From assembly GCF_000092125.1 (NCBI RefSeq), contig NC_014212.1:2938279-3002278 (forward strand): a DNA stretch of 64,000 nt, given 5' to 3'. Below the pieces are notes generated by a model. That model worked only from the letters and a program-made list of their open reading frames with translations. It searched no databases and was not told where the DNA came from. The position numbers and the translations under genes were made by a program. The DNA comes from Allomeiothermus silvanus DSM 9946 (GTDB taxonomy: Bacteria; Deinococcota; Deinococci; Deinococcales; Thermaceae). Positions 56,229 through 64,000 of this stretch are shown one piece after another (position 1 is the first letter of the stretch; each line of letters begins with the position of its first letter).

Positions 56229-58928
56229 ATGCTCACCAAAGCGGTGCGCAATGGGCTATGGAACGCGGTCAGCACCCTGGCCTCGGCTCTCACCGGCATC
56301 ATGGTCTCGGTGATCGTGATCCGCACCCTGGATACTCAGGCGTACGGCGAGGTTAGCTACTTTGCCTGGCTGGCCGGACTTCTGAGCGCGCTGGGAGTGT
56401 TGGCCTTTCCGACGGCGCTCACCCGTTTCATCTCCGAACTCCGCGGCCAGGGACGTCCCCGGGAAGGGGAAGCGCTGGCGGCTTGGGTGAGTCGGGGCCT
56501 GTTGACGTTGAATGCCCTTATCGGGCTGGCATTGCTCGTGTGGGCCTGGCGCAGCCCTTATCCCCTTTCCCTATACTTGACCATCATCGCACCGCTGCCA
56601 TTTTTGAACGCCCTGAGCCGACTCCTCACCTCGAGTTTTTGGGGCAACGAGGAATACCGTCCTGCTGCAATCAGCCTGGTACTGGCCTCTTTCGTACAGC
56701 TCGGAATTGCTGCGGCAGCGGCTTTACTGCACTGGGGTAAGCCGGGCTTCTTGCTGGCGCTTTTGTCGTTGAGCGCAATCGGCTCGATCAGCCTGTTTTT
56801 CTATGCCTTACGCAAAGGCACCCAGCGGCACTTATTCCGATTGCAACCAGGTCCTACCCATGCCACGGTGTTGCTGTACCTGGCCTTTAGCTTCCCTATG
56901 ATCCTTCACACCATCTTCGAGATGATCGTCTGGCAGCGCTCGGAGGTTTACTTTTTGGCCCAGCTTTCCACCCAGGCCCAAATTGGCTTCTATAGTCTGG
57001 CGTTCACCATCTACAGCCTTTGCGTGGGCATGGGGTATGCCCTGGTAGGGGGTTTCTTCCCGGCCATCGCCCGTGACTTTGGTGCTGGGGACTGGGTACG
57101 GGTGCGGGAGAAGATCGCCCAGGGAGTAGTTCTGATCACACTCTTCGCCACCCCTCTATCCTTCGGCGCCCTCACCATGCTGGGCACGGTTATCTATTGG
57201 CTGTACGGGGTAAAAATGTTCCCCTCGGTTCCGGTAGCCCAAATCCTCTTCCTTGGGCTCATCCCCAGCTTGTTGGTAACGGTTACCGGCCTCACCCTAG
57301 GGGCCATCCGCCGCCCCTGGGCTACAATCCCTTTAGGCTTTGCTGCCTCGGCGCTCAACATCGGCTTAGATTACTTGCTCATCCCTCAATACGAAGCCAT
57401 CGGCGCGGCATTTGCCAACACTGGCTCCCAGGTGTTTTATACGCTGGGGGCGTACTGGGTACTCTTGCGGGTCATCGGGGTCACAGGCAGGCTATATCTG
57501 CCTTGGATATCTCTAGGTACCATCGTGTTCCTGGGGTTTATCACCACTTATCTGATACCCCACTGGCTGGTGGGGCGCGGCCTGGACTGGCTGGCTATCC
57601 CCGTAGCTGGCGTGCTCTACCTGGGGGCGGTGTGGCGCCTTGGTTACGTACGCGTTTTGCAGGAGCGTGAGGGGTATCGGGTACTACACATCTTGGGAAA
57701 CCGAGTCCTCCCCAAAAACCCTGATGCTGAGGGAACCAGCGGCGTGGTGCGGGCAGCCTTGGAGATCGCCCGGGCACAAGCCCACCAGGGGTATGAGGTC
57801 TGGGCGGCTGCGGTGGGCAAGGAAGCCTGGGAACATGAGTGGCAGGGGGTGCGCCTAGTTTCGCTGCGAAGCGCCAACATACCGGTGCTGCGCCTGGCAG
57901 GGCGCGAGCTAGACCTGCGGGTTCATCTGCCCTTTGTGCGGCTTTGTCTCCTCGAGGCCTTTGATATCGTACACACCCACCTCTACGACTACGTGCGGGG
58001 TTTGCGGGCTAGAGCCAGGGTCATTCACTTTCACGGCGACCCCCTCACCCAGGTATACCAAGGGCAAAGCCCGGCACTGAAACCGGGAGACTTCCGTCTG
58101 GTAGCCCGGCACAGCCAAGCCCAAGTAGGGGTGAGCCGCTTCATCACCCGCCAGCTCCAGCGGGGTTTCAGCCGGTATGGCTTAGAGGGCCAGGTGTACT
58201 GCGTATACAACGGAGTAGACACCGAGCGCTTTCATCCGCATCGCTATCTCGGGCAAAGGCACGCGCTACGACAGGAATGGGGTATAGCCGAGGAAGAAAC
58301 AGTATTTCTATTCGTGGGGGCCATTGTGCTCGAGAAGGGGGTGATCCACTTGGCTCGGGCCTTCTCCCGGCTCTCCCAGCGCCACCCTAAGGTCCATTTG
58401 GTGCTGGCCGGCAGCAGCAAGCTGTGGGGTTCCCAGCTTTCGGATCACGATCCGCACCAAGCCTATGTCGAGGGGGTACGCCGCAGCCTAGAGGGAAGCA
58501 ACGCCCACTTCTTGGGTAGTCTCTCTCCCGCCCAAATCCCCGCCGTCTACGCAGCTGTTGATGTGATAGTCATCCCTTCGGTGATGGAGGAGGCTTTTGC
58601 CCTGGTGGCTCTGGAGGCTATGGCCTCAGGAAAGCCCGTCATCGCCTCAGCTACAGGAGGGCTGCCCGAGGTGGTGCGGCCAGAAGCCGGGCTGCTGGTT
58701 CCTCCAGGAGACGAAGCCGCCCTCGAGGCGGCGATGCTCGCCCTGGCCGAAGACCCTCTGGCCCGTCAATCGCGCGGCCTAGCCGCCCGTGAAATCACCC
58801 TCGGATTCACCTGGGCCCACGCCGTAGAGAGGCTCGAGCAGGTCTACCGAGCCGCATTGCAACGCCACCACCCCCCAAGCCGCTTGGCCGAGGCACCCTA
58901 CCCCGAGGAGGCCCGAACCCATGCCTGA
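56229..58928 (+). CDS. polysaccharide flippase (Wzx-like) fused to a family 4 glycosyltransferase
   Basis: 899 residues in one open frame. Residues 1 to about 475 form 12-14 membrane helices of the MATE/Wzx type (MLTKAVRNGLWNAVSTLASA start, RTLDTQAYGEVSYFAWLAGL, and the lipid-exporter-like repeats). From about 480 a complete GT4 enzyme follows: GYRVLHILGNRVLPKNPDAE, HIVHTHLYDY-type acceptor strand (DIVHTHLYDY), FLFVGAIVLEKGVIHLARAF, and VIPSVMEEAFALVALEAMAS. The flippase would move lipid-linked units across the membrane. The fusion places a sugar transferase on its cytoplasmic C-terminus. Confidence 0.88.
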   Translation: MLTKAVRNGLWNAVSTLASALTGIMVSVIVIRTLDTQAYGEVSYFAWLAGLLSALGVLAFPTALTRFISELRGQGRPREGEALAAWVSRGLLTLNALIGLALLVWAWRSPYPLSLYLTIIAPLPFLNALSRLLTSSFWGNEEYRPAAISLVLASFVQLGIAAAAALLHWGKPGFLLALLSLSAIGSISLFFYALRKGTQRHLFRLQPGPTHATVLLYLAFSFPMILHTIFEMIVWQRSEVYFLAQLSTQAQIGFYSLAFTIYSLCVGMGYALVGGFFPAIARDFGAGDWVRVREKIAQGVVLITLFATPLSFGALTMLGTVIYWLYGVKMFPSVPVAQILFLGLIPSLLVTVTGLTLGAIRRPWATIPLGFAASALNIGLDYLLIPQYEAIGAAFANTGSQVFYTLGAYWVLLRVIGVTGRLYLPWISLGTIVFLGFITTYLIPHWLVGRGLDWLAIPVAGVLYLGAVWRLGYVRVLQEREGYRVLHILGNRVLPKNPDAEGTSGVVRAALEIARAQAHQGYEVWAAAVGKEAWEHEWQGVRLVSLRSANIPVLRLAGRELDLRVHLPFVRLCLLEAFDIVHTHLYDYVRGLRARARVIHFHGDPLTQVYQGQSPALKPGDFRLVARHSQAQVGVSRFITRQLQRGFSRYGLEGQVYCVYNGVDTERFHPHRYLGQRHALRQEWGIAEEETVFLFVGAIVLEKGVIHLARAFSRLSQRHPKVHLVLAGSSKLWGSQLSDHDPHQAYVEGVRRSLEGSNAHFLGSLSPAQIPAVYAAVDVIVIPSVMEEAFALVALEAMASGKPVIASATGGLPEVVRPEAGLLVPPGDEAALEAAMLALAEDPLARQSRGLAAREITLGFTWAHAVERLEQVYRAALQRHHPPSRLAEAPYPEEARTHA

Positions 58929-59865
58929 GCCAGTCCAAGTCAGCATCCTCATCGCCACTTACAACCGTGCTAGCCTGCTAACGCAGAGCCTCTCGAGCAT
59001 ACTGGGCCAGACCTATCCCCATTGGGAAGTCGTCCTGGTGGACGACGGATCAAGCGATAACACCTGGGAGGTGGCCTGCGCGTTCGCCACCCGCGATGCC
59101 CGGATCCGCCCCTTGCACCAGGAACACCGCGGTTTAGCCCATTTCGCCGAGACCTATAACTTTGCCCTAGCCCAGGCCAAGGGATCGGTCATCGCGATGA
59201 TGGACGATGACGACCTGTGGCTTCCCGAACGCCTGGCCAAGCACCTCCCCTTTCACCTGGCCGGGGGCTATGCCCTCAGTTTTGCCCAATGCCAAGCAGT
59301 AGACGAAAAAACCCAACCCCTGGAGCAGCAACTCTACCCGGTGCTCAATCCCGCTACCGACTTGTACGTCGCTTTGCTCCGAGGCGAGTACTGGATTCCT
59401 ACCATCACCACCCTCATCTCCCGCACCCGGCTGGAAGCTGCCGGAGGGTTTCAGCAACGCCCGTACCTGCCCGCCTATGACTACCCTACTTGGCTGGCGG
59501 TGGGAGAGCCGATGGGGTTTTTACCGCTTAATCTGGCGCTGCGGCGGATTCACTCTCCACAGCAGATCACCAATAAATCTGCCCTCGAGCTAGCGCTCGG
59601 CGCTTATCGGCATGCAATCGAAGTAGCTGAGCGCAGCGGCTTTCCCAAGGCGCGGCTGCTCTCTGAGAACCGCCGCAACAACCTCGCCCACGCATACCAC
59701 CTGGCCGCTGCTCAGGCAGGCAACGAAGGGAAGTTTGGCCAAGCCTTGGACTACTGCCGGGAGATTGCCTGGCTGGGGCGGCCCTACCTGTTTGCCCGCT
59801 GCCTGGCCATGCTTACCTATAAGTTCGGGCAGCGCACCCTGCGCTACGCCGCCAGTCTGGTATAG
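58921..59865 (+). CDS. family 2 glycosyltransferase
   Basis: 314 residues, overlapping the fusion gene by 8 bp. VSILIATYNRASLLTQSLSS, VLVDDGSSDNTWEVACAFAT and AMMDDDDLWLPERLAKHLPF. Closely similar to the enzyme at 47911 in the first half. The C-terminal part is helical. Confidence 0.9.
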   Translation: MPEPVQVSILIATYNRASLLTQSLSSILGQTYPHWEVVLVDDGSSDNTWEVACAFATRDARIRPLHQEHRGLAHFAETYNFALAQAKGSVIAMMDDDDLWLPERLAKHLPFHLAGGYALSFAQCQAVDEKTQPLEQQLYPVLNPATDLYVALLRGEYWIPTITTLISRTRLEAAGGFQQRPYLPAYDYPTWLAVGEPMGFLPLNLALRRIHSPQQITNKSALELALGAYRHAIEVAERSGFPKARLLSENRRNNLAHAYHLAAAQAGNEGKFGQALDYCREIAWLGRPYLFARCLAMLTYKFGQRTLRYAASLV

Positions 59866-59873
59866 GAGGGGGT

Positions 59874-61007
59874 ATGGCGGGTCCATCGGTTAGCGTTTTG
59901 ATGCCAACCTACAAGCACCAGGCCTACATCGCCCAGGCCATCGAGAGCGTGTTGGCGCAGCGCTTTGATGATTTTGAGCTCGTCATCACCGATGACAATT
60001 CCCCCGACCAGACCTACGCCATAGCCGAAGCTTACGCCCGTAAAGACCCCCGGGTGCGGGTTTTCCGAAACCCTCAAAACCTAGGCCTAGCCGCCAACTA
60101 TACCCGCTGCTTTCAAAACGCCCACCCTGGAAGCAGGTATTTTATCATTCTTCCATCAGATGACTGGTGGATGCCGGAAACACTGGAAGTCTTGGTTGCT
60201 ACCGCCGAGCAAAATCCCCAGGCCACCTTTGTGCACGCGGATGGCTACAAGGTAAAAGAAGACGGGCTGGTGCCCTACCTCAGCATCTTCCGGCACCTGC
60301 CCCCCCAGGGGCTACACTGCGGCCTGCGCGAGCTGTATCTGAACAACTACATCATGGTGCAAACCACCCTGGTGCGGCGAGGCCTCTTCCAACGCTTCCA
60401 CTGCCATCCCTTTCTATTTGACCCGGACTACGTATTTGTGTCCGATTACGAACTGTGGCTGGAGTTGCTAGGGCGAGGAGCCCAAGCCTACTACCTGCCC
60501 CGTCTGCTGGCTTATTTCCGGGAGCACCCGGAGTCGCACACCATCCCCAAACACATCCTGCCGCGCATGATCGAGGAGGTCGCCATGTTCCAGGAAAAGC
60601 TTCCCCCGAGTACGCCACCAGACCTCGACCCCTACCGCCACCAGGCCGTGGTGGGCCGCTTGGCGGCGATCGGCTTTTTGTACCTGGAAGCCAAGGAGCC
60701 AGCCAAAGCCCAGCCTTACCTGGAACGTGCCGCCCGCGAGAGCCCCAAGCTACGATGGGACGTCATGATCGCACGAATGATAAGCCGGTTGCCAATGCCT
60801 AAGAGCGTCCGGGCACAGCTTTGGTATTTAGCCTTAGAAGCCGTCGGGGTCGAGCCTGGCATGAGAATCAGCACCACCTTTCTCCGGCGCTGGGGTCAGG
60901 AAAATATGACCATCATCACCGCCCTGGTCAATGACCCCACTCTGGCTACCCGGGCCTTGCAAGATGCCATTCCGCCCTTGCTATACCTCTTTGGAGGATC
61001 GCGATGA
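59874..61007 (+). CDS. family 2 glycosyltransferase
   Basis: 377 residues. VSVLMPTYKHQAYIAQAIES, VITDDNSPDQTYAIAEAYAR, NPQNLGLAANYTRCF and IILPSDDWWMPETL. It shares DDWW and the C-terminal helical tail with the gene at 55239 but is about 48 residues longer. The last codons overlap the next gene (ATGA). Confidence 0.9.
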   Translation: MAGPSVSVLMPTYKHQAYIAQAIESVLAQRFDDFELVITDDNSPDQTYAIAEAYARKDPRVRVFRNPQNLGLAANYTRCFQNAHPGSRYFIILPSDDWWMPETLEVLVATAEQNPQATFVHADGYKVKEDGLVPYLSIFRHLPPQGLHCGLRELYLNNYIMVQTTLVRRGLFQRFHCHPFLFDPDYVFVSDYELWLELLGRGAQAYYLPRLLAYFREHPESHTIPKHILPRMIEEVAMFQEKLPPSTPPDLDPYRHQAVVGRLAAIGFLYLEAKEPAKAQPYLERAARESPKLRWDVMIARMISRLPMPKSVRAQLWYLALEAVGVEPGMRISTTFLRRWGQENMTIITALVNDPTLATRALQDAIPPLLYLFGGSR

Positions 61008-63355
61008 AGTACTTTAGCCTGCTGGCATGGTTCGCTATAACTCTTGCAACGAGCGCTTTCGCCGAGACCGCCACCTGGCAAGGGACAATCGCCGGAGTAC
61101 CGGCCTGGGTAACAGTAGTAAGCCCCAACCCCATTCCCGCGGGCGTGCGCGGCCAACCCTGGTGGCGTTGGGGCAACACCCAGACCGATGCGTATGTTTT
61201 CGCTTTTGAAACTCCGCAAAATTCTCGCATGGCGTTGATCTTCGCTAAGACCGGCGATACCCCCGAGGCCCGCCTGTACTTGAAAGCCTGGGGGGCGCAG
61301 CCCATCGCCTTTCGCCTGCAAGCAGACCACCTCGAGCTGACCGACCCCCCTAACCCCGTCCTCACCTTGCGCCCTCAAGGGGGGGGCTGGTTCGTAAACG
61401 GCAAGCCCAACTACCGGCTCACGGTACTCGAGGACGGCCTGGACTGCGACCAGCAGGTAGACCCTGATGGCCAAATCGACATCGAGATCACCGTAGGCAC
61501 CGATGCCCAGGGAGATCCCTTGTGGCAGACCAACCGCCGCCGCCCAGAGGCCGACCCCTACCAAACCACCCGCGGCTGCGAGCGCTTTGGGGCCAATCTG
61601 CGGGCTCAGCCCGAGCTAGCTTTCAAGGTAGCTCCCTCCATCATGCCCACCTTCCCCTTTCTGGGTATCGGACGCGAATCCCCCGACTGGTTCGAGCAAA
61701 ACCCTAATCCGCTGTACCTTGATCTGCGCAACTACACCTTCCGTTTCAGCCCATTCCCGGGCTTTCAAAATGGCGGCATGTACGCCATCAACTCCAGCAC
61801 CTACCCGCCCAAGGTATCCTTTGAGTCACCTTTTGCCTTTTACAACTTCGACCCGGCTACCCGCTACGCTCACCTAGTCGTACGCGGAAGCCGTTTTCCA
61901 GCGGGGGTGCCCTTTGGTCCCGAACCCTACAGACTCGAGCGCACCACCTTCCGTTACTCCTGGAAAACCGATAACCCCACCGTTTGGCGCTACGGGCTGC
62001 ATCTAGCTGGCTTTTATCCCTATCAGGAGACCTATCAGATCGGTGGGCAAAAGTTTACCGCCCCTTCCCCAGCTAACCTAACCCGCTTCGTAGTAGGCCA
62101 GAAATGGCCGATGATCTCCTTCGTCGAAGCCACCCAGGGCTACCCCGGCTCGGAAGGCATCTACTTCTATAGCGCCCAGGCCAACGAACACTGGAACTGG
62201 CTCTCCGGCACCAGCGACGAACCCATCGCGGAACTCGAATCCCCTTATCTACCTAAGGACGATTCCCTGGTGCGCACCTCCGACCGGGCCCTCCCTCCAG
62301 GATTTAGGGGCGAGTACAGCGCAAGCTATTTCCGTGTCCCCCAGCTTTACCTGAGCCCGATTGACCAGCGCGTCCACCTGAGCTGGGCCCAGGGGGGCTT
62401 GTGGAATCTAGGGGATGGCCGGGTACTCCGCACCCACAGCCTCCAAGCCGGGCCCAATGTAGACAGTTGGATCCTGGAGCGTCCAGCTACTGCCCCACCC
62501 TCTCCCCCTCCAAGCACGAAACCCTCTCCCCAAGAGGACACCCCTCGGGCCTACCCGGGCAAGCTCGAGCAGGCTTTGTATGCTCTCAGCGGTTACCTGC
62601 TCTACAGCGGCCCTGACGGCGTAGAGCTACGGCAGGCTAGCTACCAGCTGCAAGCTTTCTCCCTCGATCCCCCCGCCGACCGGGCCAGCTGGCAAGTCTT
62701 CCGCCAACGCATCGCCCCGTTTGCAGGGCGCGACCCGCGCAACCTACGAGCCTGGCTGCAGGCTTTTCCCGGCGCCAGTCTAAACCTGCCGGGCGCCCAG
62801 CTAAGTCAAGTGAGGGCAGTCCCGAGTGGATTTCAGATGGTGCTGAGTACCCCTCGCCCTGTCGGGACGGCGCTAGGCCTGCCTAACCTTCCCGCGGGAA
62901 CCCATCTGCTGCGCTATAACGCGGCCAGCCGTACTTGGAGCCGCCGCCAAGCGGAGACTCCTAAGCTTCAGGGTAGGCTCGAGGCCAAAGATGCGCGGCA
63001 ATTTGAGCCGGCCCGGTTCCGGCTCAGCCTGGAGAACCAGGGCAGCCTCGATTACATAGGGCCCGCCGAGCTATGGGTGGGCAACGAATTGGTAAAAGCC
63101 TGGAGGGGACTCATCGTTCCGGGGGTGGGCCGGTGGTCTGAGGAGTTGGCTTTCTCTCCCCGCGGGAGGGGTTATCAGCCGGTTAGGCTGGTGCTGGGGA
63201 AAAACACCCTCGAGCTCGCTCCGGTCTTTATCACCCCTAACCAACGGGAGGGTATACGACAAGAGTTTAGCGCGAATCCGATGGCTCTGATCCTGCTAGT
63301 GGTGTTCCTCGCCGGAGGGCTTTTGGGTCTATGGCGCGCGTGGAGATGGGTATGA
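61004..63355 (+). CDS. large exported protein with C-terminal membrane anchor
   Basis: 783 residues. A signal peptide (MKYFSLLAWFAITLATSAFA, cut before ETATW) is followed by a long Trp/Tyr/Pro-rich extracellular region. At about 487-510 there is a Pro/Ser linker (ATAPPSPPPSTKPSPQEDTP), then a beta-rich part (RFRLSLENQGSLDYIGPAEL) and a final membrane helix (ALILLVVFLAGGLLGLWRAW). No catalytic motif is recognised. Position suggests a polymer-binding or export function at the cell surface. Confidence 0.7.
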   Translation: MKYFSLLAWFAITLATSAFAETATWQGTIAGVPAWVTVVSPNPIPAGVRGQPWWRWGNTQTDAYVFAFETPQNSRMALIFAKTGDTPEARLYLKAWGAQPIAFRLQADHLELTDPPNPVLTLRPQGGGWFVNGKPNYRLTVLEDGLDCDQQVDPDGQIDIEITVGTDAQGDPLWQTNRRRPEADPYQTTRGCERFGANLRAQPELAFKVAPSIMPTFPFLGIGRESPDWFEQNPNPLYLDLRNYTFRFSPFPGFQNGGMYAINSSTYPPKVSFESPFAFYNFDPATRYAHLVVRGSRFPAGVPFGPEPYRLERTTFRYSWKTDNPTVWRYGLHLAGFYPYQETYQIGGQKFTAPSPANLTRFVVGQKWPMISFVEATQGYPGSEGIYFYSAQANEHWNWLSGTSDEPIAELESPYLPKDDSLVRTSDRALPPGFRGEYSASYFRVPQLYLSPIDQRVHLSWAQGGLWNLGDGRVLRTHSLQAGPNVDSWILERPATAPPSPPPSTKPSPQEDTPRAYPGKLEQALYALSGYLLYSGPDGVELRQASYQLQAFSLDPPADRASWQVFRQRIAPFAGRDPRNLRAWLQAFPGASLNLPGAQLSQVRAVPSGFQMVLSTPRPVGTALGLPNLPAGTHLLRYNAASRTWSRRQAETPKLQGRLEAKDARQFEPARFRLSLENQGSLDYIGPAELWVGNELVKAWRGLIVPGVGRWSEELAFSPRGRGYQPVRLVLGKNTLELAPVFITPNQREGIRQEFSANPMALILLVVFLAGGLLGLWRAWRWV

Positions 63356-63368
63356 ACCGGAGGCAGCA

Positions 63369-64000
63369 ATGACCCCAAGCCGCAGAGATATCCAGCCAGC
63401 CCAGCCTTCAGCAAAGGCCAGGCCACACCCCCTGCAAGAAAGCCAGCTCTCGGCGTTCTGGTTGATCGCAGCAGTCGGGCTTTGCTTCGGTTTGTATTTT
63501 GTGTTGCGTTACGGCGGCCGCTGGGGCGAGATCGACGGGGTGGCCTTCGCCGGAATCATTGCCCGCATGCAGCTTGAGGGCAGGATCGATTACGCCGGGG
63601 CGTACCCGCATGGGTACGCCTATGCCACCTGGGTCAACATGCTCTCTTACTTCACCGGGCGGCCCATCGGCGAGTTAATGCAGGTCTATACACCCATACT
63701 GGGCAATGTGTTCCTGGGGATTTTCGGCTTCGCCGCCTTCCGCCGCTGGCTTGGCTCGGATCGGCTGGGCCTGATCGCTGCTTCGACGCTGTTTCTGGTG
63801 CCAGAGCTAGTGTTTACCGTCTCTCGTGGCAACCACGAGAAGGTCACCGTCGCCCTTACCCTGCTGGCCTCGCTCAGTCTGCTGAAGGGCTTTATGGAAG
63901 CGCAAGCCCGCAACTGGGGGCTCTTCGCAGCTTGGGTGGCAGTCTATTATCTGGTGACCTTTAGCTTAGCTACGCTCAACGTCTTCTTCGGCTCGAGCTT
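63369..64000 (+). CDS. multi-pass membrane protein, 3' end outside the window (possible GT-C or polymerase)
   Basis: 210 residues are visible from ATG 63369 (MTPSRRDIQPAQPSAKARPH). A polar N-terminus is followed by hydrophobic segments (SAFWLIAAVGLCFGLYFVLR; LGNVFLGIFGFAAF; LIAASTLFLVPELVFTV; and a last one near the edge). An acidic site comes between helices 1 and 2: GGRWGEIDGVAFAGIIARMQ. This resembles GT-C membrane glycosyltransferases or O-antigen polymerases, which also have an acidic first loop. Identity unproven. Confidence 0.7.
   Translation, partial: MTPSRRDIQPAQPSAKARPHPLQESQLSAFWLIAAVGLCFGLYFVLRYGGRWGEIDGVAFAGIIARMQLEGRIDYAGAYPHGYAYATWVNMLSYFTGRPIGELMQVYTPILGNVFLGIFGFAAFRRWLGSDRLGLIAASTLFLVPELVFTVSRGNHEKVTVALTLLASLSLLKGFMEAQARNWGLFAAWVAVYYLVTFSLATLNVFFGSS

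Follow-up and report, generated by a model that had tools for sequence, protein, structure and literature searches.

Wzx flippases translocate units linked to undecaprenyl diphosphate and generally favor those that are complete; in the synthesis of surface polysaccharides, how a flippase recognizes the finished lipid-linked glycan has yet to be explained. The known members of the group, both WzxE and other PF01943 flippases and MurJ, stand alone, as do the GT4 glycosyltransferases HepE, PimB', BshA, and PglA. The protein that we describe herein has features in common with either group, namely the MOP fold and the Pfam cut-offs with the former and the GT-B fold and the EX7E motif with the latter. 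Unlike all of them, it combines both in one chain: its flippase carries a C-terminal GT4 domain, and this GT4 domain is thus tethered to the membrane and has an alanine or glycine in place of the donor-site arginine. A natural fusion of this kind names one specific GT4 enzyme as the partner of one specific flippase.

The best-described protein with a logic like that of the mechanism proposed below is MprF, the lysyl-phosphatidylglycerol synthase, in which a cytoplasmic lipid-modifying enzyme and a flippase share one chain (PMC8131360). MprF modifies phospholipids with amino acids. The fusion gave no MprF match by Pfam; MprF is also absent among the PDB matches listed, which is not by itself proof. 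The second system to consider is the pair of PelF, a GT4 enzyme, and PelG, a MOP-type protein. Like the fusion, PelF and PelG bring together an acting glycosyltransferase and a membrane exporter, and their genes lie side by side, but they are separate proteins (PMC7112168).

One reading frame for a flippase and a glycosyltransferase

The window, i.e., the whole stretch of DNA analyzed, comprises 64,000 nucleotides from Allomeiothermus silvanus DSM 9946, Allomeiothermus being the genus in which we take Meiothermus silvanus (M. silvanus) to be now classed. The first-pass annotation had proposed a natural fusion of a Wzx-type flippase with a GT4 glycosyltransferase, a reading that sequence, predicted structure, and conservation all support. 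The gene is made up of the following parts:

56229..58928, + strand: fused flippase-GT4 gene, 899 codons plus stop, ATG start (open reading frame and translation)
56229..57662, + strand: flippase domain, residues 1-478, with 14 transmembrane helices, N-in/C-in (Pfam, fold match, charge pattern)
57642..57677, + strand: junction, residues 472-483 (GYVRVLQEREGY) (alignment with split homologs; model)
57678..58868, + strand: GT4 (GT-B) glycosyltransferase domain, residues 484-880 (Pfam, fold match, motifs)
58869..58925, + strand: C-terminal tail, residues 881-899, disordered in the model (pLDDT <50 for 883-899)

The frame had been described as uninterrupted over 899 codons, holding a full flippase and a complete GT-B enzyme, and the open reading frame, Pfam, the structural model, and conservation all bear this out. 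Its ATG at 56229 directly abuts the stop codon of the upstream GT2 gene (0-nt gap), and the other two frames around the junction contain stops or no recognizable sequence. Both halves score over the curated Pfam cut-offs, the flippase half with Polysacc_synt (residues 6-282) and MurJ (242-420), the glycosyltransferase half with Glyco_transf_4 (504-667) and Glycos_transf_1 (678-854). The Polysacc_synt score (52.4 bits versus a cut-off of 28.2) makes the protein a member of PF01943. The MurJ equivalog TIGR01695 stayed below its cut-off (34.3 bits versus 235.55), as did the PelF model NF038011 for the glycosyltransferase domain (24.7 bits versus 100).

An AlphaFold2 model of the fusion, built on a 12-row alignment, reached a mean pLDDT of 83.9 and a pTM of 0.60, a value at which the placement of the flippase relative to the glycosyltransferase domain is weak and not trustworthy. 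Residues 2-480 match the structure of MurJ (470 residues, 3.5 Å, Z 33.3) and residues 2-417 that of WzxE (406 residues, 3.3 Å, Z 33.4), whereas residues about 482-880 match HepE (Z 38.6), PimB' (37.2), and BshA (36.9). The fold thus switches at 480-482, within a few residues of position 478, where the junction had originally been placed. In the model the last helix ends at 471-477 and the first glycosyltransferase strand spans 484-488, with some 12 residues and no added domain between them.

The flippase domain has the fold of the MOP superfamily. Hydropathy and the model agree on 14 helices, which settles the earlier estimate of 12 to 14 at its upper end, and the predicted loops hold 20 lysine or arginine residues on the inside versus 4 on the outside. 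Because of this helix number and the positive-inside charges, the glycosyltransferase domain is predicted to be cytoplasmic and to lie beside the membrane; nucleotide sugars are likewise cytoplasmic.

As for the catalytic residues, all seven relatives retain the EX7E motif (E788-x7-E796), and the EKG lysine of the fusion is intact. GT4 donor-phosphate sites usually hold the arginine of a GRxxxEKG motif. At that position (region of residues 694-708), seven of seven relatives have an alanine or glycine, and since fused and split forms do so alike, the substitution characterizes the subfamily and does not reflect damage from the fusion. On account of it, we consider glycosyltransferase activity of the GT4 domain likely, but not certain. 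The donor site may be built differently in this subfamily than in most GT4 enzymes.

Fused and split forms among relatives

Relatives were surveyed genome by genome in 111 Deinococcota genomes and a sample of 400 Chloroflexota genomes. A first genome scan with the fused alignment as query gave no matches, its peptide patterns probably being too specific, whereas a second one with the flippase alignment returned Calidithermus and one Chloroflexota MAG as carriers of the pair. No relatives of the fusion were found among viral contigs and plasmids.

Sought in relatives, the same fusion turned up in a second species of the genus (G001, L011), with a frame of 899 aa at 90% identity, and in a genome of another family of the order (G039, L012), with an open frame of 913 aa at 50% identity. 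Comparison of the two congeners yields dN/dS values of 0.10 (flippase), 0.17 (glycosyltransferase), and 0.13 (overall); both halves are therefore under purifying selection. The 14 codons of the junction differ at 6 synonymous and 3 non-synonymous sites. The flippase-GT4 fusion is natural, not a product of chance or error.

At an E-value below 1e-15, a flippase of this subfamily occurs in 4 of the 111 Deinococcota genomes. Three of them have the fusion, and the fourth, Calidithermus chliarophilus, has the flippase as a gene of its own. The Chloroflexota sample (n=400) holds three further flippases of the subfamily, two of them with the glycosyltransferase gene next in line. The split homologs in Calidithermus chliarophilus and the Chloroflexota represent the same two proteins (about 40-50% identical) in the same order as in the fusion, and the neighborhood of P2 and P3 (see below) is also the same in most of them. 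Unlike the fusion, they are encoded by two genes with an overlap of 4 nt. Four split genomes contain both genes, and in each of them the stop codon of the flippase and the start codon of the glycosyltransferase overlap by exactly these four nucleotides (NTGA), reading GTGA in Calidithermus and in one Chloroflexota genome (G312), ATGA in a second (G176), and TTGA in a third (G111). Such a stop/start overlap is the usual sign of translational coupling. A GTGA at the junction in M. silvanus (GCGTGAGGG) was considered as a remnant of the old overlap and dropped, as it is absent from the congener.

The split flippases end in tails of 12-20 aa past the last helix, and the split glycosyltransferases start two residues ahead of the conserved LH motif region ((V/I)(L/V)H). 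In the fused proteins the linker from LGY to the first glycosyltransferase strand measures 11 or 17 aa, about the length of a split tail, so that little beyond a stop and a start was gained or lost.

Fused and split sequences separate on unrooted trees with bootstrap values of 99 (flippase), 84 (glycosyltransferase), and 100 (both). Since split pairs occur in two phyla and the fused sequences lie on one side of the tree, a single fusion of a translationally coupled pair in the Thermales is the likeliest and simplest reading. The direction from split to fused, which an unrooted tree does not fix, we infer. If it is right, the fusion illustrates a route from a gene pair coupled over 4 nt to one protein. 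After the fusion, vertical descent would be combined with transfer or loss in the simplest reading, because Calidithermus is taxonomically nearer to M. silvanus than G039 is.

It had been anticipated that two separate genes with a stop near the junction in related genomes would betray a sequencing error here. Such genes do exist in Calidithermus and the Chloroflexota, but they imply no error: with the fused frame present in three genomes and the 4-nt overlap in all four split pairs, both states are real.

One 3,679-base contig (L054 of G500) carries a flippase of the subfamily without a GT4 gene downstream, while another contig of the same genome (L094) has the P2-P3 genes and a close GT4 homolog. 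A genome from the genus of Calidithermus (G002, L014/L095) contains P2 and P3, and one of its contigs ends inside the GT4 gene.

The polysaccharide locus and the families P2 and P3

The fusion gene is embedded among other glycosyltransferase genes and is followed by two conserved families that we call P2 and P3:

55197..56228, + strand: GT2 glycosyltransferase directly upstream (Pfam Glycos_transf_2, 1.5e-26)
58921..59865, + strand: GT2 glycosyltransferase downstream, its start overlapping the fusion end by 8 nt (Pfam Glycos_transf_2, 8.6e-30)
59874..61007, + strand: GT2 glycosyltransferase (Pfam Glycos_transf_2, 1.4e-32)
61004..63355, + strand: P2, 783 aa, with an N-terminal hydrophobic segment and a C-terminal transmembrane helix (conserved beside the pair); its start overlaps the preceding GT2 gene by 4 nt
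63369..63998, + strand: start of P3, a 538-aa polytopic membrane protein (alignment) that runs past the window to about 64985

From 37836 onward, the locus encodes many GT2 and GT4 enzymes, a DegT aminotransferase, an NAD-dependent epimerase, a glucose-1-phosphate cytidylyltransferase (over the equivalog cut-off), and two C-methyltransferase-type proteins. This set of enzymes fits a locus that makes a complex surface glycan and draws on a CDP-derived sugar.

P2 has no Pfam or NCBIfam match, and P3 has no informative one. P2 is probably exported. P3 has the invariant residues E54, D56, and RGxHEK in the alignment, and the invariant acidic residues in its first loop are the sole basis on which we infer that it may be GT-C-like; its structure prediction was poor (pLDDT 46), and a profile search of the PDB with P3 gave no usable match.

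Both families lie downstream of the flippase-GT4 pair in M. silvanus, G001, G039, Calidithermus, G111, and G176, and P3 is present in every genome found with the flippase-GT4 subfamily. P3 itself is distributed more widely (5 of 111 Deinococcota and 15 of 400 Chloroflexota genomes), and most of the other Chloroflexota P3 loci have P2 just upstream and lack a flippase of this subfamily. The P2-P3 module is thus wider than the flippase-GT4 pair, which is optional as its partner. For the fused protein, the locus points to these conserved, unannotated families as likely partners. P2 and P3 adjoin each other in the Thermales and in many Chloroflexota polysaccharide loci, and the P2 homolog of Calidithermus chliarophilus (L030/L041) has an open frame of 1401 aa versus about 800 elsewhere.

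The proposed role of the fusion and its counterparts elsewhere

In the reading that we favor, with a probability of roughly 0.6, the protein is a fusion of a coupled pair whose GT4 domain adds a late sugar and hands the unit to the attached flippase, in the service of a surface polysaccharide. The ancestor would have had adjacent flippase and GT4 genes with the 4-base NTGA overlap and coupled translation. In one Thermales lineage the overlap would then have been lost and the reading frame joined, yielding one inner-membrane protein of about 100 kDa whose GT4 domain is attached to the 14th helix at its cytoplasmic end. On the cytoplasmic face, this domain would extend a lipid-linked glycan, probably one carried on undecaprenyl, by a late or the last sugar, and the finished unit would pass straight to the attached flippase and be turned outward, for use by downstream membrane enzymes that may include P3. 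The substrate, the order of steps, the hand-over, the benefit of the tether, and the roles of P2 and P3 are the conjectural parts of this scheme, and equally conjectural are the link between unit completion and export and the fixed stoichiometry that the first-pass annotation had suggested. As a single thermophilic protein, the fusion lends itself to assays of both sugar addition and flipping at once, with the natural two-protein homologs as controls.

A serious rival, which we hold possible rather than probable, is a near-neutral fusion of the already coupled pair: the two proteins were co-translated and acted together, the joined frame was kept by drift, and the domains work as they do when separate. 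The junction would suit this, being free of any added domain and about as long as a split flippase tail, and so would the split relatives, which have the same gene order and the same P2/P3 neighbors without a fusion. Against drift speaks that the fusion persists between genomes of different families whose proteins are 50% identical, although the split state persists as well, and linkers of 11 and 17 aa make no strong constraint evident either way.

Somewhat more doubtful is a stricter version, in which synthesis and flipping are obligatorily linked. Here, the GT4 domain would channel its product into the flippase cavity and gate it, and the protein would, together with P2 and P3, form a separate glycan module of the Thermales and Chloroflexota.

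We regard a Pel-like, synthase-dependent export as improbable. The GT4 domain would then make a cytoplasmic polymer and the MOP domain export the growing chain, an arrangement that a fusion would suit well and that has a precedent in the pairing of PelF with PelG, which are required together (PMC7112168). However, the score against the PelF model (24.7 bits versus 100) is far too low, and the several other GT2 and GT4 enzymes of the locus fit the stepwise assembly of a complex unit. Less probable still is that internal initiation supplies a free GT4 enzyme next to the full fusion. An in-frame TTG is found at codon 477 in M. silvanus and G001, but no Shine-Dalgarno-like sequence was seen upstream of it, and G039 has no ATG, GTG, or TTG between codons 467 and 525, so that a separate glycosyltransferase start at the usual place is impossible there. 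Finally, a sequencing or assembly frameshift that fused two genes in silico, for which only the existence of relatives with two separate genes could be cited, is rejected as next to impossible, given that three genomes at 90% and 50% identity have the fused frame in common, that dN/dS is low across the junction, and that the genome of the paper-machine biofouler Meiothermus silvanus VI-R2 was finished by Sanger and 454 sequencing with Illumina polishing to <1 error in 100,000 bases (PMC3035272).

The hand-over from an attached GT4 domain, our preferred reading, can be set beside other cases in which flippases are joined to glycosyltransferases. That the two are normally separate, as the first-pass annotation had stated, holds for the Deinococcota: among the 85 PF01943 flippase matches in the 111 genomes, 82 are separate and only 3 fused. 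Four other Deinococcota flippases with open frames of 649-842 aa were set aside as separate genes with a spurious upstream open frame, mostly in GC-rich DNA. The statement does not extend to the Chloroflexota, where other flippase-glycosyltransferase fusions (Wzx-GT2 and YfhO-Wzx) occur.

The first of these is an 836-aa frame in G312 (L101:1441-3948), in which a Wzx flippase is followed by a C-terminal GT2 domain. It resembles our fusion in having flippase and then glycosyltransferase in one frame, but its partner is a GT2 (GT-A) enzyme, it was found in one genome, and its flippase falls outside the fusion's subfamily; it is an independent flippase-glycosyltransferase fusion. A Wzx-GT4 fusion, on the other hand, has no described case in the literature searched, although earlier database records of such an architecture are possible. 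A flippase fused to a glycosyltransferase is as such not unique.

The second type involves YfhO, a GT-C glycosyltransferase with which Gram-positive bacteria glycosylate teichoic acids (PMC8035078). Similar to our fusion, YfhO-Wzx proteins naturally join a flippase with a glycosyltransferase-type membrane protein. Their GT-C-type partner, however, is N-terminal and expected to act outside the cell, in contrast to the GT4 domain of the fusion, which is predicted to be cytoplasmic. No YfhO domain matched ahead of the fusion's flippase, whose own match starts at residue 2-6. Among the Chloroflexota matches listed, at least 32 have open frames of about 1225-1500 aa, and a YfhO-type region before the Wzx flippase was confirmed in the four that were scanned (L096:1356-5366, L097:856-4818, L100:3199-7266, and L106:3-4064). 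At about 1300-1400 aa, YfhO-Wzx proteins make up a common Chloroflexota family and a widespread fusion of a GT-C enzyme with a flippase.
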